A stretch of 49,298 nucleotides of DNA from a virus: the IMG/VR virus record IMGVR_UViG_3300042460_002232, positions 1-49,298 of that record; one strand, 5' to 3'. Below the pieces are notes generated by a model. It was given only the letters and a program-made list of their open reading frames with translations. It did no database searches and was not told the origin of the DNA. Below are positions 4,949 to 49,298 of the stretch, in pieces. Every line of letters starts with the position of its first letter. Position 1 is the first letter of the stretch. Made by a program: the position numbers and the translations under genes.

Positions 4949-4949
4949 T

Positions 4950-8598: not shown

Positions 8599-8607
8599 GG
8601 ATTCCCC

Positions 8608-10284: not shown

Positions 10285-10289
10285 GGCGA

Positions 10290-11171: not shown

Positions 11172-11188
11172 GGTTAAGCTCCTCGGGA

Positions 11189-11992: not shown

Positions 11993-12192
11993 CAGATTCC
12001 TCCACGCGCACGCAGGCGCGAGAGCAGGTCCGGCTCTTCCTTGAGGTCGCGGTCGCACAGGACCCCGTCTCGGCCGGTGGTGAGAGACACGCCGCGGGTG
12101 CGGCGATGGCGGATGCGAGAGACGGCCGCCGCGTGGGCGCTGCAGAGCAGCACGCCGAGGCAGATGCCGGCGAGGAAGGCGAAGAGATTCAC
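11992..12192 (-). CDS. Small membrane protein (66 aa)
   Basis: [24 protein letters not shown] is a single hydrophobic segment or signal anchor, followed by an arginine-rich tail (RIRHRRTRG) and a soluble end. Start is a GTG that overlaps the DUF6745 gene stop by four bases (GTGA). Topology by the positive-inside rule would put the C-terminus in the cytoplasm. Family unknown. Confidence 0.6.
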
Positions 12193-15997: not shown

Positions 15998-17071
15998 TCA
16001 GAGCAATCGATCGCCAACTTGTGGTTGTCGCAACCACCCATCCTCACGAAGCCGATTCCAAGCGGCTTCGATATGCGACCGCTTCATGATATCGCGCTTC
16101 CGTTCGTTCCAGCTGTGCACCGCCAAAACTGCTTCATCGAGTGTGCTGGCGAGTGTATCGGGATCGTGATTGACCCAATGCACAGTGGCAAGCAATTCCA
16201 TGCCATAGGGCGACTGGAAACCTTCGATCAGGTTGGTAATGCGATCAACCCGCGCATTCAGCTCAATATCGCCTGCTTCCCGAAGGAAGGCTTCAGCTTC
16301 GTCGAGCGCGCCCTTCGTAGGGCTAATCTCCGACTGAACAACCCCATCGCCAACGCCCACGATGTAGTGGCCTTCCATGTGCGATAGAACGTGCTTTAGT
16401 TCCTGCGCGTAAGGGCCAAAGGTGTGCTTGATAAAATTCATCCGCAACTTTTGACCGGCGGACTGCAGGAAGTACGTGAGCTTCTGAACTTCGATCTGCG
16501 ACAGGCCGTAGTCGAGCTCCTTGTAGGCTTCTAGGACCTTGATCATCGCGGCGCGGCCAGGAGTCATCTTGGGCTTAGCTGTCCTTGTTTCCATCTCTGT
16601 TGCCGCAGGGGCACCATTCGGAGGGAATAGCACAATGCGAAGTTCAGGAACGCGAGCGGCCGCTGCCTCGATCAACGGTTTGACATCAGCCCAATCCAAT
16701 CCGCCTGCTCCACAGCCCAGTGGAGGCATGGCAACTGATTTGATGCCCAACTGCTGGGCTACGGCAATAAAATCTTCCAGTCCGGAGCTGATGTACTCCA
16801 GTTTCGAGGGCTGCCGCCAATGCTTCTTTGTCGGGAAGTTTATGACATAGTGCGGCTGCACCATCGCGCCATTATCGAAGGCAAACATCTTTCCGATTTT
16901 AACTTCGCCACGCTTGCATGCTGCTTCGTAAGCGTCGTAATTCTTTGTAAATTTCCGACGGAACTGCAGCGCGATGCCTTTACCCATCACGCCGACACAG
17001 TTCACTGTGTTGACGATGGCATCGACATCGTCCCGCTTCAGCAAGTCTCCGGATGCGATTTCGACTGACAT
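15998..17071 (-). CDS. darG: DarG antitoxin: DNA ADP-ribosylglycohydrolase
   Basis: 357 aa. The N-terminal macrodomain (about 1-155) reads GDLLKRDDVDAIVNTVNCVG with N24, then VMGKGIALQF with K31, and PPLGCGAGGLDW (116-127): the DarG-type active site that removes ADP-ribose from thymidine in DNA. A linker (about 160-175) leads to the C-terminal domain (KLTYFLQSAG, KHTFGPYAQELKHVL, and a YIVGVGDG element), which in known DarG proteins binds and blocks DarT directly. The length and domain order match the family. It starts 10 bases after the darT stop. Base composition is less GC-rich than the flanking operons, consistent with a mobile cassette. Confidence 0.93.
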   Translation of the reverse strand: MSVEIASGDLLKRDDVDAIVNTVNCVGVMGKGIALQFRRKFTKNYDAYEAACKRGEVKIGKMFAFDNGAMVQPHYVINFPTKKHWRQPSKLEYISSGLEDFIAVAQQLGIKSVAMPPLGCGAGGLDWADVKPLIEAAAARVPELRIVLFPPNGAPAATEMETRTAKPKMTPGRAAMIKVLEAYKELDYGLSQIEVQKLTYFLQSAGQKLRMNFIKHTFGPYAQELKHVLSHMEGHYIVGVGDGVVQSEISPTKGALDEAEAFLREAGDIELNARVDRITNLIEGFQSPYGMELLATVHWVNHDPDTLASTLDEAVLAVHSWNERKRDIMKRSHIEAAWNRLREDGWLRQPQVGDRLL

Positions 17072-17081
17072 TTCCTTCGAC

Positions 17082-17750
17082 CTAGTAGTACCAATCCGGG
17101 GTGATTGCGACCTTCATGTTGAGGCCCTCATTCCGGAGCAACTTAGACACCCGTACTTGAGCGGCATTATCGAATACCCCGAGGCAGACGCACAAATCGA
17201 GCGGAACTGATTGATGCACGAGGAGTTCTGCCATCCTTTTCTCCATGCGCTCGCTATAACGGGCGTGGCCGGATACGCTCTTCCAGTACCTGCAATAGCC
17301 ACCAATTGTGGGTTGTTCGTAGAACAGGTCCCAAGCGACGTGGGTGGCGAGCTGATCCATATCGTCGCAGGGAATGCTGTAATCGAGGCTTGCATTGCGG
17401 TCGTAGAAAACGATGCGACGGCCAGCATCTACAATTCGTTGTGCATAAGTCGCGAAATGCACGATGTCTTTTTGTCGGTAGGCACAGCCTGGCACGTTAC
17501 CTTCATTGATAGTGAAGAGCATCGGCGATCGCGGCGCAAAGTAGAAAGGCACGTAATCATGAAGGCTGCCGCCGGGCCCAGCGCTTACCATCTTTGCAGC
17601 TCGACGGTGTTGGATGGTCTGGTAGGCGATGTTTTGATAGCCGAACCCGGCTTCAGATAGGCTGTTCTTCGCGCGTAACTCGCCCATGCCGAAAATCTGA
17701 GCCAGATTGTCGATCGCGGTGATGTGGAATATGGGCGTGGGATTGCGCAT
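17082..17750 (-). CDS. darT: DarT toxin: ssDNA thymidine ADP-ribosyltransferase
   Basis: 222 aa, DUF4433 family. It opens with PIFHITAIDNLAQIFGMGELRAKN (H9 region is the NAD-binding start), followed by DYVPFYFAPRSPMLF and the IVFYDRNAS element. EKRMAELLVHQSVPLD carries E175, the probable catalytic Glu in the ARTT region. Known DarT enzymes ADP-ribosylate thymidine in single-stranded DNA and stop replication, and DarTG pairs act as toxin-antitoxin and abortive-infection systems. All features expected are present and the ORF is intact. It lies 12 bases after the repressor stop and 10 bases before darG. Confidence 0.93.
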   Translation of the reverse strand: MRNPTPIFHITAIDNLAQIFGMGELRAKNSLSEAGFGYQNIAYQTIQHRRAAKMVSAGPGGSLHDYVPFYFAPRSPMLFTINEGNVPGCAYRQKDIVHFATYAQRIVDAGRRIVFYDRNASLDYSIPCDDMDQLATHVAWDLFYEQPTIGGYCRYWKSVSGHARYSERMEKRMAELLVHQSVPLDLCVCLGVFDNAAQVRVSKLLRNEGLNMKVAITPDWYY

Positions 17751-17762
17751 AACTCGCCGGCC

Positions 17763-18428
17763 TTAGTCGTCGTCGCCGCCGTGCCCACGGACGCGTCCGA
17801 TGACGGCGTAGTTCTCTCCCACGATCGGTTCCGGGGGGTATTTGGACTGATCCGGATTGAGGCTGTACATGATCCAGCCCCCTGCTTCAGACCGTCTAAG
17901 CTGCTTGAGCCTTAGCCCATCTTCGCCGATCAGCGCGAAGTTCTTGCCGTGCACTGGCTCGCGTTCGCTCATGTTGATCAGAACCCAGCTGCCGTGCGGG
18001 TACTTCGGATCCATGCTGTCGCCGCGCACGGTCCAGACCTTGCACCGCTCCGCCCGCAATCCCTTCTTCTGCATCCAGTCCAGGCGGAAAGCGTGGGATT
18101 TGTCGATCTGCTCGTGATCCCAGAAGACCTCCCCGTTACCCGCTGAAAGACTGGCGCCGCAGACCTTGTCCACATAGGTGAGCGCATCCGGCGCCGCGTC
18201 TTGCCCCTTCTCTTCGAGAATTCGGTTGGGGTTCATATAGACCAGGAAGGCCTCCGGGAAATTTGCGAGGACTTTTTCGAACCCGTCCTTGGAAACCGCA
18301 CCTCGAGCCTTCCAATTCGCCCAGACGGCGTTGGACACGCCTAGCTCGGTGGCCATATCGGTCTCATTCCACCCGCGATCGCGCTGAACGCCCTGCAGAG
18401 CTGCGAGAAGCTTTTTTCCTAGATCCAT
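17763..18428 (-). CDS. CI-type repressor with S24 self-cleaving domain
   Basis: 221 aa. N-terminal helix-turn-helix (about 20-55: NETDMATELGVSNAVWANWK), then a linker with the Ala-Gly cleavage pair at 97-98 (SLSAGNGE). The C-terminal S24 peptidase domain has TVRGDSMDPKYPHGSWV (S138 nucleophile) and LRLKQLRR (K175 base). This is the LexA/lambda CI design: RecA-stimulated self-cleavage causes induction. It lies divergent from the Cro-like gene with three operator-like sites between them. No ribosome site precedes ATG 18428. DarT and DarG follow in the same direction with 12- and 10-base gaps. Confidence 0.92.
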   Translation of the reverse strand: MDLGKKLLAALQGVQRDRGWNETDMATELGVSNAVWANWKARGAVSKDGFEKVLANFPEAFLVYMNPNRILEEKGQDAAPDALTYVDKVCGASLSAGNGEVFWDHEQIDKSHAFRLDWMQKKGLRAERCKVWTVRGDSMDPKYPHGSWVLINMSEREPVHGKNFALIGEDGLRLKQLRRSEAGGWIMYSLNPDQSKYPPEPIVGENYAVIGRVRGHGGDDD

Positions 18429-18438
18429 GGCCGAACGC

Positions 18439-18502
18439 TAAACAATGTGTTATGCGAGCGCTTCACGCTATGTTGATTTTCATAATTCACATGGTGTTTA
18501 AT
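18439..18502. promoter_or_regulatory. OR operator cluster (three sites)
   Basis: Three sites at 24-base spacing share the CACA-NN-GTGT core: 18439-18452 on the minus strand (TAACACATTGTTTA), 18462-18477 (TTCACGCTATGTTGAT) and 18486-18502 (TTCACATGGTGTTTAAT). They resemble the OL sites at 15022-15080. The last site overlaps the -10 of the rightward promoter. Confidence 0.65.
18473..18502 (+). promoter_or_regulatory. PR-like promoter
   Basis: TTGATT (18473-18478), an 18-base spacer, and TTTAAT (18497-18502), one mismatch from TATAAT. The expected transcription start (about 18509) is at the ATG of the Cro-like gene, which has no ribosome site, so a leaderless message is likely. Confidence 0.6.
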
Positions 18503-18509
18503 GATGATC

Positions 18510-18764
18510 ATGGACGCACTCGACAGAGCAATTCAGAAGGTTGGGGGCTTGGCCGACTTCGCCGAGCGTATCGGCTTGAGGCGATCGCAGATGAGCACGG
18601 TCGCCATGTGGCGGGCGCGCAAGCGCGTCCCGGCCGAGCGGTGCATCGCAATCGAAACTGCTACCGACGGCGCAGTCACCCGCTACGACCTTCGCCCCGA
18701 CGTCTTCGGCCCGCCCCCGGCTGTCAAGGCTGATCCGCAGCCGCAAGCCGAGAGAGCCGCCTGA
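18510..18764 (+). CDS. Cro/YdaS-like repressor
   Basis: About 84 aa from ATG 18510 (other in-frame ATGs at 18501 and 18504). ALDRAIQKVGGLADFAERIGLRR then VAMWRARKRVPAERCIAIE and VTRYDLRPDVF is the pattern of YdaS/Cro-type helix-turn-helix proteins, small dimeric repressors at the head of prophage early operons. It faces the CI-type repressor across the OR cluster. The 3' tail is Pro/Gln-rich and probably disordered. The position and family make it the Cro equivalent. Confidence 0.85.
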   Translation: MDALDRAIQKVGGLADFAERIGLRRSQMSTVAMWRARKRVPAERCIAIETATDGAVTRYDLRPDVFGPPPAVKADPQPQAERAA

Positions 18765-18765
18765 C

Positions 18766-18999
18766 ATGGCGCGCGCCTCAAGAACCAAGCTGACCCCCAA
18801 CCAGCGCAGGCTGGTGGATGAGGCCGTTGCGCACTGGTATCGCGGCGATGGGGCAGGCGTCAGCGACGCCCACGCTTCGGAGATCGAAGCCTCGGCGCTG
18901 CGCGCCGCGCGTTCTATGCGCCGGGCTTTTTCTGCGCTGAACGCTTCGGCCTCGGGTCCCGGTACATGTCGAGCAGTGCGAGGTAAAGGGGCGCGATGA
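18766..18999 (+). CDS. Hypothetical early protein (77 aa)
   Basis: Starts one base after the Cro-like stop. It is basic and helical (TKLTPNQRRLVDEAVAHWY, then ASEIEASALRAARSMRRAF); the last 20 residues are less protein-like. It overlaps the oppositely oriented 64-aa ORF by 86 bases, so at most one of the pair may be real over that stretch. Confidence 0.45.
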   Translation: MARASRTKLTPNQRRLVDEAVAHWYRGDGAGVSDAHASEIEASALRAARSMRRAFSALNASASGPGTCRAVRGKGAR

Positions 19000-19108
19000 A
19001 CTGCTCGACGTCCTCCGGCCTCGGCAGCGTGCTGATCGCATCTGGTTTGATCTTGGCGGTCAGTATCGCGTTCAGCGTTGCAGCCGCAAATTCGTGTGGG
19101 CTGTTCAT
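18914..19108 (-). CDS. Hypothetical protein (64 aa), opposite strand
   Basis: MNSPHEFAAATLNAILTA leads a helical protein with EDVEQFIAPLYLALLDMY and a basic tail. GGAG lies six bases before the ATG. If real, it is a leftward gene inside the rightward operon. It competes with the 77-aa rightward ORF over 86 bases. No family recognised. Confidence 0.45.
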   Translation of the reverse strand: MNSPHEFAAATLNAILTAKIKPDAISTLPRPEDVEQFIAPLYLALLDMYRDPRPKRSAQKKPGA

Positions 19109-19440
19109 GTCGGTCTCCGGCGGGGGTGGGGTGTGAATCCTGGCCCTCGCATTCTGCCCCTGTCGGCAGACCGGCTCCATTCAACCCGGCGTCCCCCTGC
19201 GCCGGACTCAACCGCTGCTGTCCCCCCGCAGCGGCGGGCTGGCGCTGACTCCCCCCGGTCAGGCGTCGCGGTATCAGTACGCCGCACTCTCTCCTCCCGG
19301 CAGGGCCTTCGCCCTGCTCGCACCTTGGGCCTGCGTGAGCGGGCTCCTTCCTATTCGTCGTTTCCATGCGGCGCATCGTCGCGCCCGTTCAGGGGAATTC
19401 ATGGGAACAGCCCTTCCCCTGAATTCCCAGGGAGCCCCTC
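19109..19440. other. Gene-free interval upstream of the CII-like gene
   Basis: No convincing gene on either strand in about 330 bases. Roughly 19140-19310 of the plus strand is C-rich with many CCCC runs and little A, which is the composition of Rho-utilisation (rut) sites; in lambda a Rho-dependent terminator (tR1) sits between cro and cII, the same relative place. The right end holds the nested inverted repeats described separately. Confidence 0.4.
19388..19428. repeat. Two overlapping inverted repeats before the CII-like gene
   Basis: TTCAGGGGAA (19388-19397) pairs with TTCCCCTGAA (19414-19423). GGGAATTCA (19393-19401) pairs with TGAATTCCC (19420-19428). Both are perfect and cannot form together. 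The second ends 13 bases before the ATG at 19441. Confidence 0.6.
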
Positions 19441-19820
19441 ATGCAGCAGATGAGCCTCGCTTTCGAGCCAGGTCTGGCCCAGCGATATCGCCGAGCACGC
19501 GAGTGTCTGGCGACCCAGGTCTATCAGCGAGGCCTCGTCGCCGTCGCCGGGAAGCTGGACATGTCCCCGTCGAAGCTGACCGAGAAGCTGGCCGGCGCGA
19601 GTTCGGACGGCAAGGTCCGCGGCTTCACGCTCGACGAGCTGGAGGACTACATCGAGCAGACAGGCGACGTGTCCGTCGTCCACTACCTCGCGGAGAAGTA
19701 CTGCCGCGACCCGGCGGTGCAGCAAGCCGAAGCTCTAGCACAGCTCGCAGCGATCACGAAACAGCTGCCTGCCTTGCTCAGCTTGGCAGGCCTGCAGCAG
19801 GCGCCGAAGGGGCGCCGCGG

Positions 19821-31161: not shown

Positions 31162-32733
31162 GTGTCCGCCCTCTACCGCGACGCACTGGCCTACGCGCGT
31201 TTGCGGCAGGTACTGCTGCCTGATCAGTTCTACGCGCTGCCGGTTGAGGCGCGGCAGTGGGCAGCGACGGTGTCGGGACTCGGCGCGATCGATCAGATCG
31301 ACGGCGTGCTCGGCAGCGTGACAAAGGCGCTGGAGTCAGGGCAGACCTTTGCAGATTGGAGGAAGGCAGCGCTCGCCGACCCCGCGCTCGGAAAACTGTC
31401 CTCGGCGCACCTCGACAACATCTTCCGCACCAACATCCAGAGCGCCTACAACCAGGGACGCGATGCCCAGTTCGAGCGGAACAAGGCGCAGCGGCCGTAT
31501 CTGATGTGGGATGCGGTCAACGACGGCCGTACCCGGCCCGATCACGCTCGCTGGGATGGCTACATCGCTCCCGTTGAGGATCAGAGCTGGCAGGCCTGGC
31601 ACGGCCGCAACAAGTTCCGTTGCCGCTGCAAGCGCATCGCGCTCACCCAGGCCCAGGCCGTAGCGCGCGGGCTGAATACCCAGGGCGCGCCGCCGAACGC
31701 CGGCGCTGACACCGGGGTGACCAGCAGCAGTTGGCGGGATTCGCTCGATCGGGCAGTGCAGAGCCGGGTCGCGAAATGCGCGGTCCGCACTGCGGCGCCC
31801 GGCGTCGTTCCGTCCTGGTGCCTTCCCGGTCCGATCCGCACGGCGCTGGAGGACGTGCAGGCACGCATCGCCGAGAGCCCGGCGGCTGCTCTGGAGCGCG
31901 AGATTCGGTCGGGCCTCCGCGGCGAGCGCTACGAGGACGCCCTGCAGAAGCTGCGTGAACGCGGCGCCCTCAGTGGACCGCTGTCCGAGGTCGAGGCCGT
32001 CGCGCTGCACCTCTGGTCTGGCGACAACGCAGCGCGGCCCCGGCCAGACGGCAACTTCCCCTACCAGGTGATCGGCAGGGCGCTGCGTGCGATGGGGCGG
32101 GGTGAGACCTCGCCGGAGTGGGGCCGGGTCGCCGCCATCGTCGCCGGCGCCACCCAGGCACTGCAGCAACTGCCGGAGCCCCGGGTCTCGCAGCTCTATC
32201 GCGGCTTCCGGGTCGAATCCCTTCCGACCGACATTCGGGACGCCTTCCTGCGTACGCACACGACCGCCGGCGCCACCTTTCAGACCAACAGCTTCACGTC
32301 GTACTCGTCTCGCCTGGATATCGGACGCAAGTTTGCCGGGGCCGATGGCTGGATCATCGTGCTCCGAAACCCTCGTCAGGTCCGGGACATCGGCGTATAT
32401 TCAGCACTACCGAGCGGCGCCGAGTTCCTGGCACCGCTGCAGAGGCAGTACAGGATCATCGACGTGGACCCACAGGCTCGCGAAATCAGCGTGGCAGAAG
32501 TGACGGAGGAAAGCCGGCAGCCGCTGCCGCGCGCCCGGAACTTCTCTGCGCCGTCCCCTGACGATGTCGTCGAAATCGCTCCGGGGCATACGATGCTCCG
32601 CCGCTATGCCGAAGATCCCGATTACATGGCCTGGCGGGCTGAACAATCCCGACTCATCGCCGAGGCGCGCCGCAATCCGGCTCCTCTCGCGGAAGCTGAC
32701 GAGCTGGTCGTTAATCACATGCTCTACGGCTGA
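31162..32733 (+). CDS. MuF head-morphogenesis protein fused to ADP-ribosyltransferase
   Basis: 523 aa. The first 165 residues are a Mu gpF/SPP1 gp7-like minor head domain (QTFADWRKAALADPALG, FRTNIQSAYNQGRDAQF, TRPDHARWDG, WHGRNKFRCRCKRIAL). After a linker, residues about 230-440 match the R-S-E type ADP-ribosyltransferase fold: LYRGFRVES (R347), TFQTNSFTSYSS (377-382) and SGAEFLAPLQRQYRI (E421). The usual first acidic residue of E-x-E is Gly here, so target specificity may differ. MuF proteins sit inside the head near the portal and may be ejected with DNA. An effector role is inferred by analogy with T4 Alt. GTG start. Confidence 0.82.
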   Translation: MSALYRDALAYARLRQVLLPDQFYALPVEARQWAATVSGLGAIDQIDGVLGSVTKALESGQTFADWRKAALADPALGKLSSAHLDNIFRTNIQSAYNQGRDAQFERNKAQRPYLMWDAVNDGRTRPDHARWDGYIAPVEDQSWQAWHGRNKFRCRCKRIALTQAQAVARGLNTQGAPPNAGADTGVTSSSWRDSLDRAVQSRVAKCAVRTAAPGVVPSWCLPGPIRTALEDVQARIAESPAAALEREIRSGLRGERYEDALQKLRERGALSGPLSEVEAVALHLWSGDNAARPRPDGNFPYQVIGRALRAMGRGETSPEWGRVAAIVAGATQALQQLPEPRVSQLYRGFRVESLPTDIRDAFLRTHTTAGATFQTNSFTSYSSRLDIGRKFAGADGWIIVLRNPRQVRDIGVYSALPSGAEFLAPLQRQYRIIDVDPQAREISVAEVTEESRQPLPRARNFSAPSPDDVVEIAPGHTMLRRYAEDPDYMAWRAEQSRLIAEARRNPAPLAEADELVVNHMLYG

Positions 32734-38104: not shown

Positions 38105-39091
38105 ATGGCCCAGCCCGCTCTCGAAAAATTCACCCGCCGCGGCCTCGCCGCTGTCGATCAGCCTGTTGCCGGCACGCCGGTCGCCCCGAACCCGGCGAAC
38201 AACGGCATTCGGTTGTACGACGGCCAGTCCGGCACCGAGTTCGACACCCTGGAGGAGAACCGCGACAAGCCGTTCTTCAGCGGCAACGAGTTCACGACCT
38301 TCAACCACCGCGCCTTCATCGAAGGCTACGTGCACCTGTACCCGCCGGAGGTGCCTGGCGACGCAGCCGACGGCACGCCGGAGTGCGACCTGCTGCTGCG
38401 CATCGCCGGCATGGCGAAGACGCTGGACGACGTCGCCGGCACCACCCGCTACGACCCGATCAGCGACAGCATCCCGATGGCGACCGCCGATTTCTGGCAC
38501 GCAGGCACGCTGCGCCGCATCTATGACGCCCGCGCCAACATCTCGGCGCTGAGCCTGGAGATCGGTAACCGCGCTCGCGCCCAGCTGCGTGTCCAGGGTC
38601 AGTACACCGCGATCAACGAGCAGGCGCTGCCGGCGATCACGGTGTCCGAAACCTTCGGCCCGGTCATCGAGGCGGCGAACTCGATCACCCAGGTGGTGCA
38701 GTACCCGGATGGTGTCGCCGGTGCCGCTCTCAACCTCTGGGGCAAGGCGCTGACGGTGGACTTCGGCTCGCAGCTGACGAGCAAGGAGTACACCGAACAT
38801 GAGGAGACGGCGATCGATGGTCGCCAGCCGACCTTCACGCTGCGCATCGCGCGGCCGGCGAAGGCCGACTTCGACCCCTGGGCGGTCCGCAAGGCCGGCA
38901 CCTACATCACCGCGACGCTGCAGGTCGCCAATGCCGACGGCCGCTACACCCTGCTCGGCATCCGCGGCCTGATCCGCGACATCAACGAAACCGACATCGA
39001 CGGCGACTACGGCCTGGAAATCACCGGTCCCTGCATCGCCACCAGCGCCGGCGGCGACGAGTTCTACATCGAGTTCGGCACGAACCCGTAA
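38105..39091 (+). CDS. Major tail tube protein
   Basis: 328 aa. It polymerises around the tape measure to form the tail tube. Blocks: LEKFTRRGLAAVDQPVAGTP, GTEFDTLEENRDKPFF, ATADFWHAGTLRRIYDARAN, ADGRYTLLGIRGLIRD and IDGDYGLEITGPC. It is a paralogue of the first about 325 residues of the last gene of the window. Tube identity is supported by the position between terminator and tail chaperones. Confidence 0.83.
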   Translation: MAQPALEKFTRRGLAAVDQPVAGTPVAPNPANNGIRLYDGQSGTEFDTLEENRDKPFFSGNEFTTFNHRAFIEGYVHLYPPEVPGDAADGTPECDLLLRIAGMAKTLDDVAGTTRYDPISDSIPMATADFWHAGTLRRIYDARANISALSLEIGNRARAQLRVQGQYTAINEQALPAITVSETFGPVIEAANSITQVVQYPDGVAGAALNLWGKALTVDFGSQLTSKEYTEHEETAIDGRQPTFTLRIARPAKADFDPWAVRKAGTYITATLQVANADGRYTLLGIRGLIRDINETDIDGDYGLEITGPCIATSAGGDEFYIEFGTNP

Positions 39092-39123: not shown

Positions 39124-39507
39124 ATGAGCCTGATCCTCAAAGCGGCGAAGACCACCCCGATCCGCATCGACATCGACATCGACACCGATGCCGGCCGCAT
39201 CAAGGGCCACTTCACCGGCCATGCCCACATCCGCAGTAAGGCGCAGCTCAAGGAGTTCGCCGAGCGGCTGGGAAAGCTGGCGGATGACGGCGCCGCCGCC
39301 GATGCAGACGCGACGATCCTGCGCGAGATGTACGAGCGCTTCGACGGCCTCGCCAACGAGAGTGGCCCGCTGTCCGGCGACGCGGCGTTTTCCGAGATCC
39401 TGGAAGGCCCGCTCTCCGTGCACCTCACGCGCTCGGCGCTGAACGCCTACTGGCAGCACCTGTCCGGAGCACGCGAGGGAAACTCGCAGCCTGCGCGCGC
39501 GCGCTGA
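39124..39507 (+). CDS. Tail assembly chaperone (gpG analogue)
   Basis: 127 aa. KAAKTTPIRIDIDIDTDAGRIKG and RSKAQLKEFAERLGKLADDG, TILREMYERFDGLANESGP are characteristic of the first tail chaperone. It binds the tape measure and tube subunits before tube assembly. Near its 3' end it carries the slippery heptamer that yields the longer form. Confidence 0.82.
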   Translation: MSLILKAAKTTPIRIDIDIDTDAGRIKGHFTGHAHIRSKAQLKEFAERLGKLADDGAAADADATILREMYERFDGLANESGPLSGDAAFSEILEGPLSVHLTRSALNAYWQHLSGAREGNSQPARAR

Positions 39508-39848
39508 GCGGCATCCCACCCGCACCGGAGGATTCTGCATGGTTGGCGCGCGAGGAGCCGGACGGCACACCGAGCGCCGAGGATTTCTTCCGGGGCGCCG
39601 ACGGCGGCACGCGCGTGCTGCACGTCTGGCCGGACTTGCTGCCGGCGACGGTGGTGTTTGTGCGCTGCACGCAGGCGGTTGCCGGCGGCATGGGGATGCT
39701 CTGGCTGGGCATCCCTGCCGCCGAGGTCCGCGCCGCCCTGGTGCTGACCGCGGTGCCGAGGCCGGATTGGCGGTCGGTGTCCACCGACGTGACCGCGATG
39801 GGGCGGATCGTTGCGGAGTGGCACAACCGCAGAGCTTCACGGAAGTAG
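39124..39848 (+). CDS. Tail chaperone fusion (gpGT analogue) via -1 frameshift
   Basis: Reading shifts back by one at 39477-39483. The fusion has 120 codons in frame 0 (to Asn at 39481-39483) and 121 codons in the -1 frame, giving 241 aa and ending at 39848. The -1 part starts LAACARALSGIPPAPED and includes AEDFFRGADGGTRVLHVWPDLL; it has no good start of its own. Both lengths and gene order match the lambda G/GT pair. The -1 frame is open from 39483 through 39848. Confidence 0.8.
39477..39483 (+). other. -1 frameshift slippery site GGGAAAC
   Basis: The codons are G-GGA-AAC in phase, matching X-XXY-YYZ; lambda G uses GGGAAAG. It lies 21 bases before the zero-frame stop codon. Confidence 0.82.
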
Positions 39849-39861
39849 CCGGGGCCAGACC

Positions 39862-42800
39862 GTGACCACCCAGACAGTCACGCTGCGCATCGTCGGCGAG
39901 AACGGGCAGCTGGTCAGCGCCATCAAGGGTTCCAGTGCGGAGCTCAAGGGGCTGGGTGCTGCTGGCCGCGATGCAGGCGCCCAGGTGGACCGCGGCGCCG
40001 CCGCAGCGAGCCGGGGAATGGAGAACCTTGCCCGGCAGGTGACGGCAGCGCGCCAGCTTCTCATCGGCTTCTTCACCTTTCGCGAAGCTGGCCGTCTGCT
40101 GTTCGCCCTCGGCCGAACAGCAGACGCATATTCGAACATTCAGGCGCAGCTGCGCTTGGCGACGAGCAGCGAGCTCGAATACCAGCGCGCCCAACGTGAG
40201 ACGTTTGCGATCGCGCAGCGCACCAGTACGCTGCTTGACACGACCTCTGGGCTGTATGCGCGGATCACACGGTCGGTCAGCGAGTATGGGATCTCGCAGG
40301 CTCGCGTTCTCGGCATCACGGAAACGATCAACCAGAGCTTTGCCGTCTCTGGCGCCAGCACAATTGCGCAAGCGAACGCTGTCACGCAGCTGACCCAGGC
40401 CTTTGCTGGCGGAGTGCTGCGGGCCGAGGAGTTCAACAGCATCATCGAAAACAGTCCGAGGCTGGCGCAAGCGCTGGCGGATGGACTTGGCATCGGCATC
40501 GGCGCACTGCGCAAGCAGGTCAACGACGGCAAGGTCGATGTTCAGGCGATGATTTCCGCACTGGAGAGCCAGCGCGCTCGAATCCAGGCGGAATTCGAGA
40601 AGATGCCGCTGACCATCGAACGTGCATGGACGCGCGTGCGCAACGCAGTAATGACCTACGTTGGCGATGCCGACCAGGCGAGCGGCGCCTCCAGAACGCT
40701 GGCAGCTGCAATCGCCGATCTGGCCGACAACCTGGATGTGCTGACCGAAGCAGCGGCCGTGCTCGCTGTTCTGGGTGCCGCGCGCTGGTTGGGGCCGTTC
40801 CTGGCAGCGCAGGGGCTCGCCACTGCCGCGATCATCCGCCAGACATACGCTGCGCAGCAGCAGGTAGCGGTCAGCGTCGCCGTCGATCAGGCGTTTGCGA
40901 AGACCGCCGCCCAGGAAGCGCGGGGAGCTGCCGTCAAGGTCCAGGGTATCGCGGTCAATCAGGCCTTCATTGCATCCGAGCGAGCGTTGGCGGTGGCCGC
41001 CGTTGAGCGCGCGAATGTCCAGCTCGCGGAGGCCAGAGCAACACTGGAGGCCACTCGAGCCACAGGCTCCGCGGCGTATGCCAGCGGCTTGCTGCGCCAG
41101 GCCGAGCAGGCGCTTTCTGTAGCGATGCGCGTGCGTGCCGCCGAGACTGCGGCGCTGACCCGGCTGGACCAGGCCGCCAGCGCAGCCGCGTTGCAGCATG
41201 CCGCAGCGACCCGCGCCCTTGCCGCCGCCAGCACCACCTCGGCTGCTGCACAGACGGTCGCTGCTGCGGCGACTGCGCGCCTGACGCTGGCTGCCCGGGC
41301 CGCGAATGCCGCGCTTGCCCTAGGTCGTGGAGCTCTTGCGCTAGTGGGCGGCTGGGCCGGCGCCGCGGTCATCGGGCTGACCGGCCTGTACTTCTGGCTG
41401 AACCGCAGCAAGACCGCTGCGGATGATCTCGCCAACATCCAGCCGACTGTCCGCTCGCTGCGCGAGCTGGCCGACGAAGCCGATCGCTTCGCAAGTCGAG
41501 GTCCGCTGATCTCGGATGAGGAAAGGGCGTCCATTGAGCAGACGCAGGAAAGAATCCGGGGCTACGCCGGCGCGATTGGGGTTCTCGCTGCAACGAGGGA
41601 TCGCCTTGCTGCGCAAGGAGATGTGCTCGGCGCCAAGGGCCAGCAGGCGGAGATCGGCAAGCTCACCGAACTGATCCGGGAGGCGACCGGCGAGCTGCAA
41701 CGCTTCTACGCGGTCAAGGCGACCGGGGCCGGTACCGAGGCCATCAACCGAGAGATCGAATCGCTGCGGCGACAGATCGATCTGGTGCGCGGCGGGCGCT
41801 CCCCCTCCGATGCCCAGTTCCTGGAGGAGTTCGCCGCGGCCGATGACGCCGGCAAGCAGATACTCGCGCTCAAGAAGAGCTTAGAAGGGCTCGGCGATGC
41901 GCAGCGCCGCGCTGCCGACTCCGCCAAGGCTGCCGCCGATAAGTCCAGACGCGCTGCCGAGGAATACGCTACCAAGCTCAAGGAGATCGCTGCACTCGAA
42001 CGGCAGCTTGCATTGGTCCGAGATGGCGGCCTCTCCCCGGCGGAGGCCGTCTTCACAGTGCAGCGGGATGCCGCTGATGCGCTCGGCAAGAAGCTGATCG
42101 ATCTGCAGCGGCAATGGGAAGGCGTGACGGAGGCCCAACGGGCGGCCGATGAGTACGCCCAGGCTGAAGGGCAGCGGTCTCAGACGCTGCGCGACGAGGC
42201 CCGGGAACTGGAGACGGTCCTCGCGCTGATTCGCGACGGCGTCCCGGCCGCGGAGGCCGCGGCCGAAGCCAGGCGCCTGCTGATGTCGGAGGAGGAGCGG
42301 CATGTCCAGGCCCTGCGCGATGAGGCTGATGCCGCGGTGGCTGCCGCCGAACGCTTGCAAGAGCCGTTTCAGGATCTGAGGGATGTCCTCGTCGCTGCCG
42401 GAGACGACTGGTCGCGATCAGCCGCGACGATCGTTCAGGGCCTCGAAAACATCAACAAGGGGAACAGGGCGGCCGTGCGTGGCTACGCCCAGCTCACGCA
42501 GGGAGCGGCCGGCTTTTTCAAGGAAGGTACCGGTGGCTACAAGCTGCTGCAGGCGGCCTCACAGGCCTTCTACGCGTTCGAGATTGCGCAGCAGGCCGCC
42601 TCGGTGGTCGCGTCCATCGCCGCTTCCGGCAAAAAGGCCGCCGCACACGGCGTAGCTGCGAATGCTGCCGGTGCCGAGGCGGTCGCCACGCAGGCCGCTT
42701 CCGGTCCGATCATCGGGTTTGCGATGGCTGCGGCTATGATCGCCTTCCTCGCGAGCATCGGCGTCAGCCCGCGCGGCAAGGGCGGCAGCGCCGGCGCCCG

Positions 42801-44652
42801 CCCCTCCGCAGTCGCCAGCACAAACCTCGGTGCCGGCACCGGCACCGTACTCGGCGATCCGGAAGGCCGCAGCGAGTCCATCGCCAACAGCCTGGAGGCC
42901 TTGGAGCGATACGCCGAAACCGATATCGGCTACAGCGCTCGGCAGCTGCAGACCCTGCGCTCGATCGAGGCGGGGATCCGCGGTGTCGGCGGCCTGCTGT
43001 TCCGCCAGAACTACACCACCGGCGGCCCGACACCGTTCAACATGGCGGAGACGGTCAGCGGCACCGCGACCGGCGACATCATCACGCAGCTGGCGGGCAT
43101 CAACTTCGGGACGCCGATCCTGAATTCCTCCCTGCTGAACAAGCTGACCTTCGGGATCTCCGGCGCCGTCGGCGGCCTGGTCGATGGGATCATCGGCGGC
43201 ATCGTCGGCGGGCTGTTCGGCTCCACGACGCGCAAGCAGATCGACACCGGCATCATCATCGCCGGCGGCCAGACCCTGGGCGACATCATGGCGAACGGCC
43301 TCGACGCGCTGTACTTCGCGACGATCGAGACGACGAAGAAAAAGGCTTTCGGCCTATCGAAGTCGCGCAGCCGCCGGGATGTGACCTCTGACCTGAGCGA
43401 TGACCTGACGCGCCAGTTCACGGACATCCTGCTCGGACTGGGCGACTCGGTCATCGATGCGGTCGAGGAACTCGGCCTGAATGCGCAGGCAGCGGCGGAC
43501 CTCCTGAACAACCTTCCGCTGGAGATCGGCAAGATCTCGCTGCAGGGACTGACCGCCGAGGAGGTGCAGGAACGCCTCAGTTCGGTCTTCAGCTCGATCG
43601 GCGACACGTTCGCGACCACGGTCGTCCCGGCGATCGCCGAATTCCAGCGGGTGGGTGAGGGCGCCTACGAGACGCTGCTGCGCGTGGCCTCCGAAACCGC
43701 GATCGTGACGCAGGGCCTCGGCAATCTCGGCCTGTCGCTGACGGGGCTGGCCGGACTCGACGCGGCGCGTGCCGCGCAGGACCTGATCGACCTCGTCGGT
43801 GGCATCGAGAACTTCACCGATTCGATCTCGACATTCTTCTCGGAATTCTTCTCCGAGGAGGAGCAGACCGAGCGGCTGCGATCGCAGCTATCCGAGGCGC
43901 TGGGCGACATCGGCTTTGCGCTGCCATCGACGCGACAGGGCTTCCGCGACCTGGTGACCTCGCTGGACCTGACCACGGAATCCGGCCGGGAGGCCTTTGC
44001 CGCGCTGCTGCCGTTGGTGGGAGCCGCCGATCGCTACTACGACACCCTGGACGACAGCGCGGAGAAGTACCGCGACGCTGCCGATCGGCTGCAAGAGTTC
44101 CGGGCGTCTATGCGGGATATCGCGGAGGAGGCCCGCGGCCAGTCACTGGAGGCGGCGCGCCTGCGGTTCGAATCGGTGTCTCGTCGTGCCCGGCTCGGCG
44201 ACCTCGACGCGATCTCTGCGCTGCCTGATGCCGGCGGCGCCTACCAGCAGGCCAGCGCCGCGCTGGCTAGTTCTCGCACCGAGTACCTGCGCGACCTGGC
44301 GCGGATCCAGCTCGCGGCGGCGCAGGCCGAGGAAGTCGCTCGCCGCCTTGGCCAGGAGGATGTCGCGCAGGCGCAGCTGGCCGCCCTGAACAGGCATACC
44401 GAGCTGCTGGAGAGCATCGATACCAGGCTCAGCAGCAGCGGCGCGGCAATCACTGCGGCGCCGACCGTGGCCGCGGGAGCTTCCGGCGGAGCCGCCACCG
44501 ACGCAACCGAGCTGTCGGCCCTGCGCGCCGAGATCGCGGAGCTCAAGGGGTACCTGCACCAGCTCACCGTATATGCCGGCAAGACTGCCGCCTCGACGCG
44601 CCGCCTCGACGACTGGGATGCCGACGGCCTGCCACAGGAGCGCACCGCATGA
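39862..44652 (+). CDS. Tape measure protein
   Basis: 1596 aa from GTG. Near the N-terminus, DAYSNIQAQLRLATSSEL, RITRSVSEYGISQARVLG, AFAGGVLRAEEFNSI and the QVNDGKVDVQAMISAL segment match the tape-measure N-terminal domain (TIGR02675). The middle is Ala/Gln/Arg-rich coiled coil with hydrophobic segments (ALALVGGWAGAAVIGLTGL, then IIGFAMAAAMIAFLASIG) that could enter the membrane during ejection. The C-terminal coiled regions precede a Gly/Ala-rich tail. It sets tail length; at about 0.15 nm per residue the tail could be over 200 nm, so this is a siphovirus. A longer ORF begins at 39811 inside the preceding gene. Confidence 0.95.
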   Translation: MTTQTVTLRIVGENGQLVSAIKGSSAELKGLGAAGRDAGAQVDRGAAAASRGMENLARQVTAARQLLIGFFTFREAGRLLFALGRTADAYSNIQAQLRLATSSELEYQRAQRETFAIAQRTSTLLDTTSGLYARITRSVSEYGISQARVLGITETINQSFAVSGASTIAQANAVTQLTQAFAGGVLRAEEFNSIIENSPRLAQALADGLGIGIGALRKQVNDGKVDVQAMISALESQRARIQAEFEKMPLTIERAWTRVRNAVMTYVGDADQASGASRTLAAAIADLADNLDVLTEAAAVLAVLGAARWLGPFLAAQGLATAAIIRQTYAAQQQVAVSVAVDQAFAKTAAQEARGAAVKVQGIAVNQAFIASERALAVAAVERANVQLAEARATLEATRATGSAAYASGLLRQAEQALSVAMRVRAAETAALTRLDQAASAAALQHAAATRALAAASTTSAAAQTVAAAATARLTLAARAANAALALGRGALALVGGWAGAAVIGLTGLYFWLNRSKTAADDLANIQPTVRSLRELADEADRFASRGPLISDEERASIEQTQERIRGYAGAIGVLAATRDRLAAQGDVLGAKGQQAEIGKLTELIREATGELQRFYAVKATGAGTEAINREIESLRRQIDLVRGGRSPSDAQFLEEFAAADDAGKQILALKKSLEGLGDAQRRAADSAKAAADKSRRAAEEYATKLKEIAALERQLALVRDGGLSPAEAVFTVQRDAADALGKKLIDLQRQWEGVTEAQRAADEYAQAEGQRSQTLRDEARELETVLALIRDGVPAAEAAAEARRLLMSEEERHVQALRDEADAAVAAAERLQEPFQDLRDVLVAAGDDWSRSAATIVQGLENINKGNRAAVRGYAQLTQGAAGFFKEGTGGYKLLQAASQAFYAFEIAQQAASVVASIAASGKKAAAHGVAANAAGAEAVATQAASGPIIGFAMAAAMIAFLASIGVSPRGKGGSAGARPSAVASTNLGAGTGTVLGDPEGRSESIANSLEALERYAETDIGYSARQLQTLRSIEAGIRGVGGLLFRQNYTTGGPTPFNMAETVSGTATGDIITQLAGINFGTPILNSSLLNKLTFGISGAVGGLVDGIIGGIVGGLFGSTTRKQIDTGIIIAGGQTLGDIMANGLDALYFATIETTKKKAFGLSKSRSRRDVTSDLSDDLTRQFTDILLGLGDSVIDAVEELGLNAQAAADLLNNLPLEIGKISLQGLTAEEVQERLSSVFSSIGDTFATTVVPAIAEFQRVGEGAYETLLRVASETAIVTQGLGNLGLSLTGLAGLDAARAAQDLIDLVGGIENFTDSISTFFSEFFSEEEQTERLRSQLSEALGDIGFALPSTRQGFRDLVTSLDLTTESGREAFAALLPLVGAADRYYDTLDDSAEKYRDAADRLQEFRASMRDIAEEARGQSLEAARLRFESVSRRARLGDLDAISALPDAGGAYQQASAALASSRTEYLRDLARIQLAAAQAEEVARRLGQEDVAQAQLAALNRHTELLESIDTRLSSSGAAITAAPTVAAGASGGAATDATELSALRAEIAELKGYLHQLTVYAGKTAASTRRLDDWDADGLPQERTA

Positions 44653-46712
44653 TCCTCGTCCGACCGATCCCTATCGGCCCCTTGCAGCTGGTCAGCACCA
44701 ACATCGAGATCAACGATGCGCTGGCCTGGGATGTCGGCGAGACCTACAGCGACGGCGACCGGGTCATCTTCAACGATCGGGTCTTCGAGTCGATCGCGGA
44801 TGGCAATACCGGCCACGAACCGGATGTCAGCGCCGATCCGCCGTACTGGCTGGACCTCGGGCCGATCAATCGTCTCCGGATGTTCGATGGTGCGCCCTCG
44901 CTGGCGTCGCAGTGGACGGGGCTGATCGACGTGACGATCCAGCCAGGCGCCGAGTTCAATGCGGTGGGGCTGATCAACGTCACCGGCGTGGAGGTCACCG
45001 TGCAGGCCAGCGATTCCTCCGGCATCGTGTATGAGCAGAGCCGGTCCTTGCTGCCTGACTTGCCGACCGACGATCCCTACTACTCGCCGATGGACCGGCG
45101 TACCGACGCGGTGTTCGTAGATCTGCCGTTGCTGCCGGCCGCTGACGGCCAGGTGCGCATCATCGTGAATGCCGGCGATGGCCTGACGGCTCGCTGCGGC
45201 GAAGTGGTCCTCGGCCGGCAGGAGTTCCTGGGCGACACGCAGTTCGGGGCCAGCCTCGGCATCCGGGATTTCAGTCGCAAGGACACCGACGACTTCGGCG
45301 AAACCCGCATCGTGCGCCGCGGCTACTCCCGCACCGGCGACTTCGCTGTGCAGATCGATTCCGACAAGCTCTCGACGGTGCTGCGGCGGCTCGCGCGCGT
45401 TCGCGCGGAGCCAGCGCTGTATGTCGGGACCCGGAACCGGGAGGAGTCGTTCCTGTACGGCTTCTACCGCGGCTTCACGCTGGTGCTCGCTGGTCCGGCC
45501 CGCAGTACGGGCAGCATCGAGATCGAGAGCCTCACCTACGAGGCCGAGGATTCGCTGTTCGTGGGCGGGGTCCTGATTCAGACGCCGCAGATCACCAGCC
45601 CGGCGTACAACACGCTGCTGCATGAGGACCTGACCTTCGTCTCGACGGCATTCGTCACAGCGCCGGTCGAGCAGGATGTCCACGCCAGCACGGACTGGCA
45701 GTTCTCCCCCGATGCGGGATTCGCCACGATCGCGCATGAGTCCCTGGCGGACACCGTCAACCTGACCAGCTACGAGCTCCCGGCGGAGGCGCTGGCCGGC
45801 GGGACCTACTACGTGCGCTGCCGGTATCACGGCACGGAGCACGGTGCGAGCCCCTGGTCGGCCGCGATCAGCATCTATGTCGAGGAAGCCGGCGAGGCGG
45901 TGTTTACGACGCCCGGCCTGCATGAATGGACCGTGCCTGCCGGCGTCACCGAGATCGCCGTGCTGCTCATTGGCCCGGGCGGCTATGGGTCCCATATCAG
46001 CGGTGGCGGCGGCGGCGCGCTCGCTTACGTGCAGTGGCTGCAGGTCGAGCCGGGTCAGACGTACTACATCTACATCGCCATCAACGGAGATATCGGCACC
46101 TTCTTCGGTGCTGGAGAGGAGATCGGTGACGCGCTCTTCTGGGCGGGTTCGGGTCTGAGCTTTTACTCCGAGGTCGGTGGCTACATCCAGGGCGGGCTGC
46201 CCTACGATCAATCCGTGCAGGACCACACGCCAGGCGCGACCTTCGTCGGCTTCCGAGGCGGTGACGGTAGCGGTGGCCTGGGCGGTAGCGACGTGCTCGG
46301 GGGCGGTGGCGGTGCTGCCGGTTACGACGGCGACGGTGGCGACGGTGGAGCGCCTACCGCGGCCGGTAGCGATGGGAATGGCGGCGGCGGTGGTGGCGGT
46401 GGTGGTGGTGGCGACGGGACTCCAGACCTCGGCATCGGCGCCGGCAATGGTGGCGGTGTCGGCCTCTACGGCATCGGCCCGTCCGGCGTGGGCGGCGCCC
46501 CTGCAGAGGGTGGCACGGGCGGCAGCGGCGGTGACGACGCGACGAACAGCGCCGTCGGGCCTGTCCTCGGACATGGCGGCGACTACGGCGGTGGTGGTGG
46601 CGGCGTCTATCTCTTCGGCATCGAGAATGCCCAGGTCGGCGGCGGCGGTGCCGCTCGAATCATCTGGGGCATCGGCATGTCCTTCCCCAACCATGCAGGC
46701 CCGGTGGAGTAA
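44649..46712 (+). CDS. Tail protein with glycine-rich adhesin domain
   Basis: 687 aa. The N-terminal half (ILVRPIPIGPLQLVSTNIEIND, DGDRVIFNDRVFESIADGN carbohydrate-module-like, EVVLGRQEFLGDTQFGASLGIRDF) looks like a tail structural protein. A fibronectin/Ig-like segment follows (TYYVRCRYHGTEHGASPWSAAI). Residues about 425-687 are a Gly-rich region (GGDGSGGLGGSDVLGGGGG, GNGGGGGGGGGGGDG and GGTGGSGGDDA) of the polyglycine-sandwich adhesin kind seen in T-even gp38 and S16-type phages. Role inferred: host recognition. ATGA overlap with the tape measure stop. Confidence 0.72.
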   Translation: MILVRPIPIGPLQLVSTNIEINDALAWDVGETYSDGDRVIFNDRVFESIADGNTGHEPDVSADPPYWLDLGPINRLRMFDGAPSLASQWTGLIDVTIQPGAEFNAVGLINVTGVEVTVQASDSSGIVYEQSRSLLPDLPTDDPYYSPMDRRTDAVFVDLPLLPAADGQVRIIVNAGDGLTARCGEVVLGRQEFLGDTQFGASLGIRDFSRKDTDDFGETRIVRRGYSRTGDFAVQIDSDKLSTVLRRLARVRAEPALYVGTRNREESFLYGFYRGFTLVLAGPARSTGSIEIESLTYEAEDSLFVGGVLIQTPQITSPAYNTLLHEDLTFVSTAFVTAPVEQDVHASTDWQFSPDAGFATIAHESLADTVNLTSYELPAEALAGGTYYVRCRYHGTEHGASPWSAAISIYVEEAGEAVFTTPGLHEWTVPAGVTEIAVLLIGPGGYGSHISGGGGGALAYVQWLQVEPGQTYYIYIAINGDIGTFFGAGEEIGDALFWAGSGLSFYSEVGGYIQGGLPYDQSVQDHTPGATFVGFRGGDGSGGLGGSDVLGGGGGAAGYDGDGGDGGAPTAAGSDGNGGGGGGGGGGGDGTPDLGIGAGNGGGVGLYGIGPSGVGGAPAEGGTGGSGGDDATNSAVGPVLGHGGDYGGGGGGVYLFGIENAQVGGGGAARIIWGIGMSFPNHAGPVE

Positions 46713-46715: not shown

Positions 46716-49298
46716 ATGCCGCAACCCAAGCTCGAAAAGTTCAATCGTCGTGGTCTCGCGCTGAAGCTGCAGGTCACGCCCGGCACACCGGAGGCGCCGA
46801 ACCCTGCCACGGACGGCCTGCGCCTCTACGATGGTCGCAGCGGCACCGAGTTCGATGTCCTGGAAGACAGCCCGGATCGTCGGCACTTCAGCAGCCCGCG
46901 GATCTCGACCTGGAATCATCGGGCATGGATCGAGGGCAGCCTGCGCGTGCAGCCGGGCAGCGGCGCGAACCCGCCGGATGCGGACCCACTGCTGCGCATC
47001 GCCGGCATGCAGCCGGATACCGATGGCCTGCCGGCCGGTTCCGTGCGCTATCTGCCGATCAGCGAGGACATCCCCTGCGCGACGACGGACTTCTGGCACG
47101 CCGGCACCCTCAGGCGCATGCACGATGTTCGCGCCGCGATTAGCGAGCTGTCGATCCAGATCGGGGAGCGCGCTACGGCTCGACTGCGCATGCTGGGGTT
47201 CTACTCGGGGATCGGGCAGCAGGCACTGCCCGCGGTGCCCGTGGCCGAGGAGCTTGGCCCGGTGGTGGAAGCCGAGAACTCGGAAGCGCGCATCATCCAG
47301 TATCCGGACGACGTTGCCGGCGACACCCTTCATGTCTGGGCGAAGTCGCTCAGCATCGACTGCGGCACCCGGCTGACCCCGAAGCACTACACGCAGCACC
47401 GCGAGATCGGCTACGACGACCGGCAGCCCAGCTTCAGCCTGCGTATCGCGCGCACCGACCTCACCGAATTCGATCCCTGGACGCTGCGTGCTGACGGCAC
47501 GCTGATCACTGCAGCGCTGCGCGTGACCGGTGCTGATGGGCGCTACACCGAGATTGGCATCCGCGGTTACATCCGCGATGTGGAGGAGGTCGAGATCGAC
47601 GGCGACTACGGCTGGGAGATCGCCGGGCCTTGCGTGGCGAGCCCTGCGGGCGGCGATGACTTCTACGTCGAGTTCGGGAACCCCGATAACCCCGATGGTG
47701 GAGGCCTGCCGCATGCGATTGGCTCACCGATTCTGAGTCTCGACGACGAGCATGTCTCAGAGGATGGCGGCACGGGCGGCTACGTCGTGACGTTCCCCTG
47801 GCAGCCGGTGGTGCATGACGAGCAGCTGGTGATCGGCCCCGATGTCGTCGGCGCGCCGGGTCCGGATCTGGTGGTGACCATCGACGTTCCCGGGGACAAC
47901 TTCCTCGACGACGATCCTCACACGCTGACGATCGAATTGGCGTCCGATGCCGGTGGCACGGTGCAGCTCAATCTCACCGTGGACGGAGTGCCGTGGCTTG
48001 AGGAGCAAGCGATCGTCGTGCCACCAGGCGGCCAGACGGTGGTGATCACGTTCACGCGGCCGGCGCCGGATCAGCCGTGGGACGTCGTGATTGATCCTCC
48101 GATCGGAGCGCCGGATACTTCGTGTGCAGACCTCGACGATGAACCAACCGAGACAGACTTCACCAACGCCATGCTGCAAGGGCCGCTGGAAGGATCAGGC
48201 GGCGAGGCGACTGGGATTCTGCTCGACTGGGCTTCGGGCGGGCCATTGTTTGTACTAGACACCGATGATCTGGCTGCGCTTTTCGCTGGACAGGGATCGT
48301 CTAATGCCATTCAGGAAACCCCTCCCGAGTCCGGGTTGCTGCGGCTGTACGAAAATCAAGCCGTCTATGTGGTCCACGCGAACGTTCCGCATCATGTTGC
48401 TTGCCGTGAAATCTTCGTCACGCCGGATGTTATTCCCTACGATCCGCTCGATCCGTCGCGAAGCGTGGTGTGGTACAGCGCATCGAACCCTGAGTTCCCG
48501 ACATCGGGCGATGAGATTTTCCCTGGAGGGCAGGACAAGCGTGGCGGGCTCAGGATCCGTTTCACTTCGGACGAAAGCGGAGTTGTGACTGTCTCGAACG
48601 CGGAGATATTCGCCCCGCCGATCAACACCACCTGCGAAGATATCTTGTCCGACAACTTCAACCGTGTAGGCGATCTGGTTGGCACCGCGCCGCAGGTTGG
48701 TCCAGCGTGGGTCGCCGATGTGCTCAATGTCGGTTCCGAGACGCCAACGACCAATGGAACGCACGCGGTGTTCGGTGCTGCGGATGGCGCCGACAACGAA
48801 ACCAAAATCGCCGCACTCAACTTCGGCGGTCCAAAAAGGATCGTTGACATGGTTATCGCAGCATCTGGTGTGTTGAACGCTATTACGCCGGAGGCTGGCG
48901 GCGGCTCAAGCTTTTCGTTCAATATCGGATTGTTTAATGACCCGGACCCGACGGCAGTCGATGCGTACTTGAACGGCGCGGACTTCACCGTTACGCGCGA
49001 CCAAGACACAGGCATCTGTGTGGTCAATTTTGGTGCCTTTAGCGTGAGTGGTGACCCCATTGAGTACAGCCAAGCTATCGGCGTCGGCATCTCCGCCGGA
49101 GACCCTGTGCCCTTTGACCTGCGCGCGGAGGTGCACGGTAGCGAAGTAACGTTCTTCGTGAACGACACAGCTGTGTTTTCAGGTGCTGGCTTTGTATTCG
49201 CTGACCAGGATAGCTACCAGTATGCGCAAGCCATCGGTGCCATTGGCGTTGAGGTCGATAGCGCACACATCGGCGTCTGCCATGTAGTTGAGGTGTAG
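46716..49298 (+). CDS. Second tail-tube-like protein with long C-terminal extension
   Basis: 860 aa ending at the last base of the window. Residues 1-325 parallel the major tail tube protein along their entire length (LEKFNRRGLALKLQ, FWHAGTLRRMHDVRA, and IDGDYGWEIAGPCVAS). Residues about 330-480 are beta-rich linker/Ig-like segments (GGQTVVITFTRPAPDQPW). About 480-640 and 640-860 are two more beta domains; the last begins LSDNFNRVGDLVG and resembles a ConA-like jelly roll. The 3' part (about 48140 onward) is less GC-rich than the tube part. It may decorate the tube or form its distal end. Both roles are inference. Confidence 0.75.
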   Translation: MPQPKLEKFNRRGLALKLQVTPGTPEAPNPATDGLRLYDGRSGTEFDVLEDSPDRRHFSSPRISTWNHRAWIEGSLRVQPGSGANPPDADPLLRIAGMQPDTDGLPAGSVRYLPISEDIPCATTDFWHAGTLRRMHDVRAAISELSIQIGERATARLRMLGFYSGIGQQALPAVPVAEELGPVVEAENSEARIIQYPDDVAGDTLHVWAKSLSIDCGTRLTPKHYTQHREIGYDDRQPSFSLRIARTDLTEFDPWTLRADGTLITAALRVTGADGRYTEIGIRGYIRDVEEVEIDGDYGWEIAGPCVASPAGGDDFYVEFGNPDNPDGGGLPHAIGSPILSLDDEHVSEDGGTGGYVVTFPWQPVVHDEQLVIGPDVVGAPGPDLVVTIDVPGDNFLDDDPHTLTIELASDAGGTVQLNLTVDGVPWLEEQAIVVPPGGQTVVITFTRPAPDQPWDVVIDPPIGAPDTSCADLDDEPTETDFTNAMLQGPLEGSGGEATGILLDWASGGPLFVLDTDDLAALFAGQGSSNAIQETPPESGLLRLYENQAVYVVHANVPHHVACREIFVTPDVIPYDPLDPSRSVVWYSASNPEFPTSGDEIFPGGQDKRGGLRIRFTSDESGVVTVSNAEIFAPPINTTCEDILSDNFNRVGDLVGTAPQVGPAWVADVLNVGSETPTTNGTHAVFGAADGADNETKIAALNFGGPKRIVDMVIAASGVLNAITPEAGGGSSFSFNIGLFNDPDPTAVDAYLNGADFTVTRDQDTGICVVNFGAFSVSGDPIEYSQAIGVGISAGDPVPFDLRAEVHGSEVTFFVNDTAVFSGAGFVFADQDSYQYAQAIGAIGVEVDSAHIGVCHVVEV

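Follow-up and report, generated by a model that had tools for sequence, protein, structure and literature searches.

The question raised by this locus is what a tailed virus would gain from a second tail tube gene that lies beyond its tape measure gene and is fused to a long C-terminal extension. The window is the whole 49,298-base IMG/VR record (IMGVR_UViG_3300042460_002232), and the features needed to address the question are as follows.

38105 to 39091, + strand: P0002, predicted major tail tube protein, 328 amino acids, with no decoration domain
39124 to 39848, + strand: tail-assembly chaperone pair, 39124 to 39507 and its -1 frame to 39848, joined by a putative frameshift
39811 to 44652, + strand: tape measure protein (TMP_3, E 1.7e-59; PHROGs tape measure, 1.4e-108)
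44649 to 46712, + strand: P0003, tip/adhesin protein, with 295 N-terminal amino acids matching phrog_6278 and a glycine-rich C terminus matching phrog_4474
46703 to 46709, + strand: Shine-Dalgarno-like GGTGGAG, read directly within the 3' end of P0003, 6 nt upstream of the P0001 ATG
46716 to 49298, + strand: P0001, tube paralogue with C-terminal extension, 860 amino acids, a complete open reading frame with an ATG start
46716 to 47684, + strand: residues 1-323 of P0001, the tube body, a fusion of two tube domains (58% identity to P0002; AlphaFold2 model)
47721 to 48113, + strand: extension d1, approximately residues 336-466, all-β in the model (pLDDT 61-78 over residues 381-460), no family match
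48114 to 48617, + strand: extension d2, approximately residues 467-634, G+C 58%, no family match
48618 to 49295, + strand: extension d3, approximately residues 635-860, G+C 57.5%, starting SDNFNRVGDLVG, no family match

P0001 and P0002 are separate genes lying 7.6 kb apart. Residues 1-323 of P0001 align by BLASTP with the full length of P0002 at 58% identity and 73% positives over 329 columns with 7 gap positions (E 3e-130), exceeding the agreement at roughly half of the positions claimed in a sequence-only reading of the locus, and BLASTP finds no further alignable segment between the two proteins. The identity is spread throughout the tube body, with values of 0.50-0.70 per 40-residue block. 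Identities at codon positions 1, 2 and 3 are 0.705, 0.758 and 0.484, and this bias of the divergence toward the third, mainly synonymous, position indicates that both copies evolved under purifying selection. The sequence-only reading had also placed the duplicate downstream of the tape measure gene and of an adhesin gene and had described its fusion to about 530 residues less rich in GC than the tube part. The position is borne out, the extension beyond the tube body is 537 residues long with at least one β domain included, and its G+C content is 59.7% compared with 67.3% for the tube part.

The assignment of P0002 as the tail tube protein draws on its slot between the tail terminator gene (Pfam E 1.8e-9) and the chaperone and tape measure genes, on relatives annotated "tail tube protein" and on its predicted fold; the family libraries gave no confident model for this tube family. 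The structural module runs in the order terminase (Terminase_6N/6C), Mu-type portal, MuF-like protein, HDPD decoration protein, cap_E capsid protein, gp36- and gpS-like connectors, tail terminator, tube, chaperones, tape measure, P0003 and P0001. The MuF-family head protein (31162 to 32733, + strand) has a C-terminal ADP-ribosyltransferase match (ART, E 1.8e-5) and is a possible virion-delivered enzyme. The chaperone gene contains a canonical slippery G_GGA_AAC (39477-39483), and its -1 frame is open as far as 39848; it is a G/GT-type frameshift candidate. The start codon of the tape measure gene is uncertain, with the GTG at 39862 as the alternative.

P0001 was modelled by AlphaFold2 with 35 family sequences, giving pLDDT values of approximately 80-98 over most of residues 11-320 and lower values at Loop1. 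The tube-body model superposes onto the P74-26 tail tube (PDB code 8ed0) with a VIA-align Z of 21.8 over 298 residues, the T5 tail tube (PDB code 9iny) with a Z of 21.7 over 304 residues, the SH-Ab15497 major tail protein with a Z of 21.0 and the T5 tail-tip chain 9ioz_A (approximately 293 residues, taken here as p140) with a Z of 17.1. The tube body is thus predicted with high confidence to share the double-domain tube fold of T5 pb6 and P74-26, with the two domains in one chain; the T5 and P74-26 tubes are built of double-domain proteins forming trimeric rings (PMC10038345, PMC10034513). The main-tube slot, ahead of the chaperones and tape measure, is occupied by P0002 and not by P0001, and since P0001 lies outside this slot it is classed as sharing the fold rather than as the main tube protein.

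The extension is taken to be modular and β-rich, and its composition to be foreign. The G+C content falls from 67.3% in the tube part to 64.9% in d1, 58.2% in d2 and 57.5% in d3, and GC3 is 0.84 in the tube part and 0.67 over the whole extension, falling to approximately 0.65, with a coding-type codon-position composition that persists across the junction into the extension. The view of P0001 as a tube joined to β domains stands in the structure prediction for the tube body, at high confidence, and for d1, at moderate confidence, and not for d2 and d3, where no usable model was obtained. The sequence-only reading had named a ConA-like end, an assignment that is not supported: the motif SDNFNRVGDLVG opening d3, common at the start of ConA-like domains, serves as a lead, and Pfam, PHROGs and NCBIfam returned no match to a ConA-like or any other domain in the extension. 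AlphaFold2 modelling of d3 alone gave a pLDDT of 33, and because this model is unusable the missing ConA-like folds in the structure searches carry no weight. No credible relatives of the extension were found in viral contigs (pattern search and tblastn), in 50,697 phage records (tblastn up to E 10) or by phmmer against all retrieved related loci, and the best match in 398 Pseudomonadota genomes (E 0.013) is at chance level.

The gene neighbourhood places P0001 within a tail-tip block. The tape measure gene and P0003 overlap by 4 nt, the gap between P0003 and P0001 is 3 nt, and together with the GGTGGAG upstream of the P0001 ATG this spacing indicates coupling between P0001 and the tip genes. 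The record closes on the last base of the P0001 stop codon and opens with an integrase gene; the record is probably a provirus, apparently trimmed at gene boundaries. The left arm of the record also holds, on the - strand, a cluster of HerA-like helicase, exonuclease, AAA_23/SbcC-like and PD-(D/E)XK genes (2767 to 13472), a possible defence or recombination cluster that includes a DNA methylase gene at 2767-4659. At 15998 to 18428 (- strand) a macro-domain (DarG-like) gene adjoins genes for DarT (E 1.8e-53) and for an S24-type repressor, giving a DarTG-like toxin-antitoxin pair.

In related loci the gene after the tape measure encodes a large tip/adhesin protein (831-1426 amino acids); it is followed in some by a small gene, and in the two cases read further downstream (records L065 and L067) by conserved genes for proteins of 660 amino acids (phrog_8917) and 260 amino acids. 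As equivalents of these two genes are absent from the present record, the tip block probably extends past the record end, the stretch covered stopping at P0001, short of any Dit or hub gene; a search of viral contigs with an exact 24-mer from d3 gave no continuation. Products of the post-tape-measure genes match He_PIG (1.8e-8) and Laminin_G_3 (1.4e-5, just under its cut-off) in L039, SPRY (5e-8) in L082 and He_PIG (5e-20) in L084, and by these matches adhesin-type β domains are usual in this slot among the relatives. The L049 tip protein (16481-19810, 1109 amino acids) has an end that by eye seems Hint/intein-like, with no Pfam match at E 1. The N-terminal family of P0003 (phrog_6278) follows the tape measure gene in Salicola phage CGphi29, where it stands alone; full-length relatives of P0003 were not found in viral contigs, and its N terminus alone was matched after the tape measure gene in other phages. 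Beyond the P0003-like gene of CGphi29 lie genes for proteins of 562 and 270 amino acids (L061, 13901-16405) that are mutual paralogues (E 1e-14), one with a large insertion. This pair was considered as a parallel to P0001 and set aside, no relation to P0001 or to tubes being shown.

Viral contigs, genomes of the Xanthomonadaceae/Lysobacteraceae (Vulcaniibacterium, Pseudoxanthomonas, Luteimonas) and two named cyanophages yielded related tubes. Among 395 genomes from a single bacterial family 7 gave one match each, as did 7 among 369 genomes of the class, and a genome-contig scan with a two-sequence alignment gave no match. A single tube gene is present in each of the 27 related records or genomes searched with P0001, many of the viral ones being fragments, and in each of three closer records searched as retrieved DNA; the same gene pair, for which the sequence-only reading had proposed a search in related phages, was found in none of them. 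P0001 and P0002 are sisters in trees of 35 sequences (support 98/90) and 23 sequences (96/89), showing the duplication to be lineage-specific, and the pair is in turn sister to the L039 tube with support of 100/100. The branch lengths of P0001 and P0002 are 0.61 and 0.28 (35 sequences) or 0.54 and 0.28 (23 sequences), from which P0001 is estimated to have evolved about twice as fast as P0002. In L039, in L081/L082 (which appear to be one phage) and in L084 the tube protein has 413-417 amino acids and ends in a He_PIG Ig domain (E 8e-11, 7e-11 and 4e-12, respectively), and each of these decorated tubes is single-copy in the retrieved DNA. The data do not reject a tree in which the decorated tubes, whose branches are long, group with the window pair (p-AU 0.57). 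On these domain matches, decoration of the tail is normal among the nearest relatives, and moving the decoration onto a second gene is not. One economical reading is an ancestor with a decorated tube from which the window lineage split the job between a bare P0002 and a decorated P0001; as He_PIG has no match in the P0001 extension, the decoration would on this reading have been replaced.

P0001 is a lineage-specific, structurally intact duplicate of a double-domain tube protein that has moved into the tip block. The sequence-only reading had proposed sparse decoration of the tube, a ring at the tip or adhesion as its role, and there is precedent for each. It is probable that P0001 is anchored in the tube and presents an outward-facing, β-rich arm, a core claim common to a ring at the tip and to mixing along the tube. 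The leading explanation, given close to an even chance, is a tube-anchored adhesin, most likely assembled in low copy number as a ring at the distal tube end, like T5 p140. The P0001 tube body would form a trimeric (pseudo-hexameric) ring stacked on the last P0002 ring, and the extension would point outward as an adhesin or a receptor/carbohydrate-binding arm, three per ring. One such low-copy ring with its own decoration would lie between the P0002 stack and the remaining tip. The T5 tube continues below the pb6 rings with a trimeric ring of p140, which the authors trace to duplication of the tube gene and place in the baseplate in part because of gene position (PMC10038345). In DT57C the equivalent TTMP ring is touched at its top by the two long tube loops and sends its own loops tailward, to Dit (PMC10713586).

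A paralogue in the last ring would be expected to keep the face receiving the P0002 loops and to change the loop face. Loop1, Loop2 and the inter-domain linker, located by strand order in the model rather than by superposition, have the same lengths in P0001 as in P0002. Identity to P0002 is 75% at the N terminus, 65% in the linker and 52% in Loop2; it is lowest in Loop1 (31%) and in the neighbouring β3-α loop (17%), the latter with a 5-residue deletion of the family-conserved PPxxPG. In the model this pattern fits, and does not prove, an encounter of one face with a new partner. For regions fixed beforehand the divergence is not significant, either for Loop1 compared with the rest (p = 0.13-0.21) or for the loops compared with the socket wall and N terminus (p = 0.35-0.47), and a p of 1e-4 is obtained only for a region chosen after inspection of the data. 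Interface divergence was accordingly set aside as a means of telling a ring from mixing, being not significant for the pre-fixed regions.

The best of the other explanations, although unlikely, is random co-polymerisation of the two proteins throughout the tube, the SPP1 gp17.1/gp17.1* scheme spread over two genes, in which extensions scattered along the tail would help reversible binding to the host surface. The 58% identity of the tube bodies and their equal loop and linker lengths are compatible with such mixing, mixed tubes work in SPP1 (PMC8718954), and the single Ig-decorated tubes of L039, L081/L082 and L084, with the tree uniting them with the window pair, fit a P0002 that lost its decoration and a P0001 that retained or replaced it. 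However, the P0001 gene lies in the tip block and not beside P0002, it evolves approximately twice as fast, and it has lost a family-conserved loop, which random mixing would not favour. Gene position and, by analogy, the T5 precedent favour the ring at the tip over random mixing.

A clearly less probable explanation treats the tube body as a mere anchor captured by recombination, with P0001 docking on the tip or on P0003 as an often-swapped host-range adhesin that forms no ring. The adjoining adhesin-like P0003, the foreign composition of the extension, its want of detectable relatives, as in fast-exchanged receptor-binding domains, and the adhesin domains filling the same slot in relatives agree with this explanation, whereas purifying selection acting on a whole 323-amino acid double-domain body goes beyond what a simple anchor would need. 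Least probable is that P0001 has no dedicated role yet, as a recent or decaying duplication, a tail-exchange gene or a record artefact (mis-assembly or a wrongly trimmed provirus end), since the record's start with an integrase and its end exactly at the P0001 stop, as in trimmed proviruses, and the restriction of the pair to this one record among those searched are countered by an open in-frame reading frame, coding-type composition across the junction, a Shine-Dalgarno sequence and strongly conserved residues.

Duplication of tube genes and C-terminal decoration of tubes are each already known. Duplicated tube proteins are the presumed ancestors of the tail-tip proteins Dit, hub and p140, and to our knowledge the known tube-to-tip duplications are so diverged that structure alone reveals them. 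The same arrangement was not recognised in selected open-access papers on paralogous or duplicated tube genes. Tentatively, and at somewhat less than an even chance, the split of a decorated tube into a bare main tube and a faster-evolving paralogue with a large exchangeable adhesin may represent an early, independent and, at 58% identity, still recognisable stage of the process by which p140 is proposed to have arisen in T5. If this is true, the decoration of the tail or a ring at the tip could evolve independently of the tube. A pair this similar, in which one member has an outward extension, would allow a direct test of the origin of tip rings through the co-assembly, location and binding target of the new tube copy, and P0001 suggests a tube-anchored display of exchangeable adhesins.

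Comparison with known systems places P0001 closest to T5 p140 and DT57C TTMP, which are likewise tube-fold proteins and are presumed to come from tube-gene duplication (PMC10038345, PMC10713586). They share the double-domain fold class, a gene among the tail-tip genes and a second type of ring beside the main tube, the P0001 ring being proposed. In contrast, p140 retains 9% identity to its tube protein, and it has no decoration domain, which the authors explain by the surrounding collar (PMC10038345), whereas P0001 retains 58% identity to P0002 and has 537 residues more than a tube body; owing to this extension P0001 is not classed as a p140/TTMP protein. SPP1 resembles the window phage in the coexistence of a bare tube form with a C-terminally extended one, but gp17.1 and gp17.1* come from one gene by frameshift, the extension is an FN3 domain and the ratio is approximately 3:1, or about one extended subunit in four (PMC8718954). 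P0001 and P0002 are two diverged genes, and the extension is much longer. T5 pb6 and the Ig-decorated tubes of L039, L082 and L084 have the same fold and an extension at the same C-terminal end of the body; unlike P0001 they are encoded by single-copy genes in the tube slot and bear one Ig domain (He_PIG in L039, L082 and L084), and in the window phage it is the paralogue that is decorated and the main tube that is bare. Rhodobacter phage RcTitan gp17 (737 amino acids; BFVD structure match) also joins a tube-like fold to a long extension, but it lies in the tube slot as apparently the sole tube gene, suggesting that in this fold class what looks like the main tube protein can itself carry a long extension.
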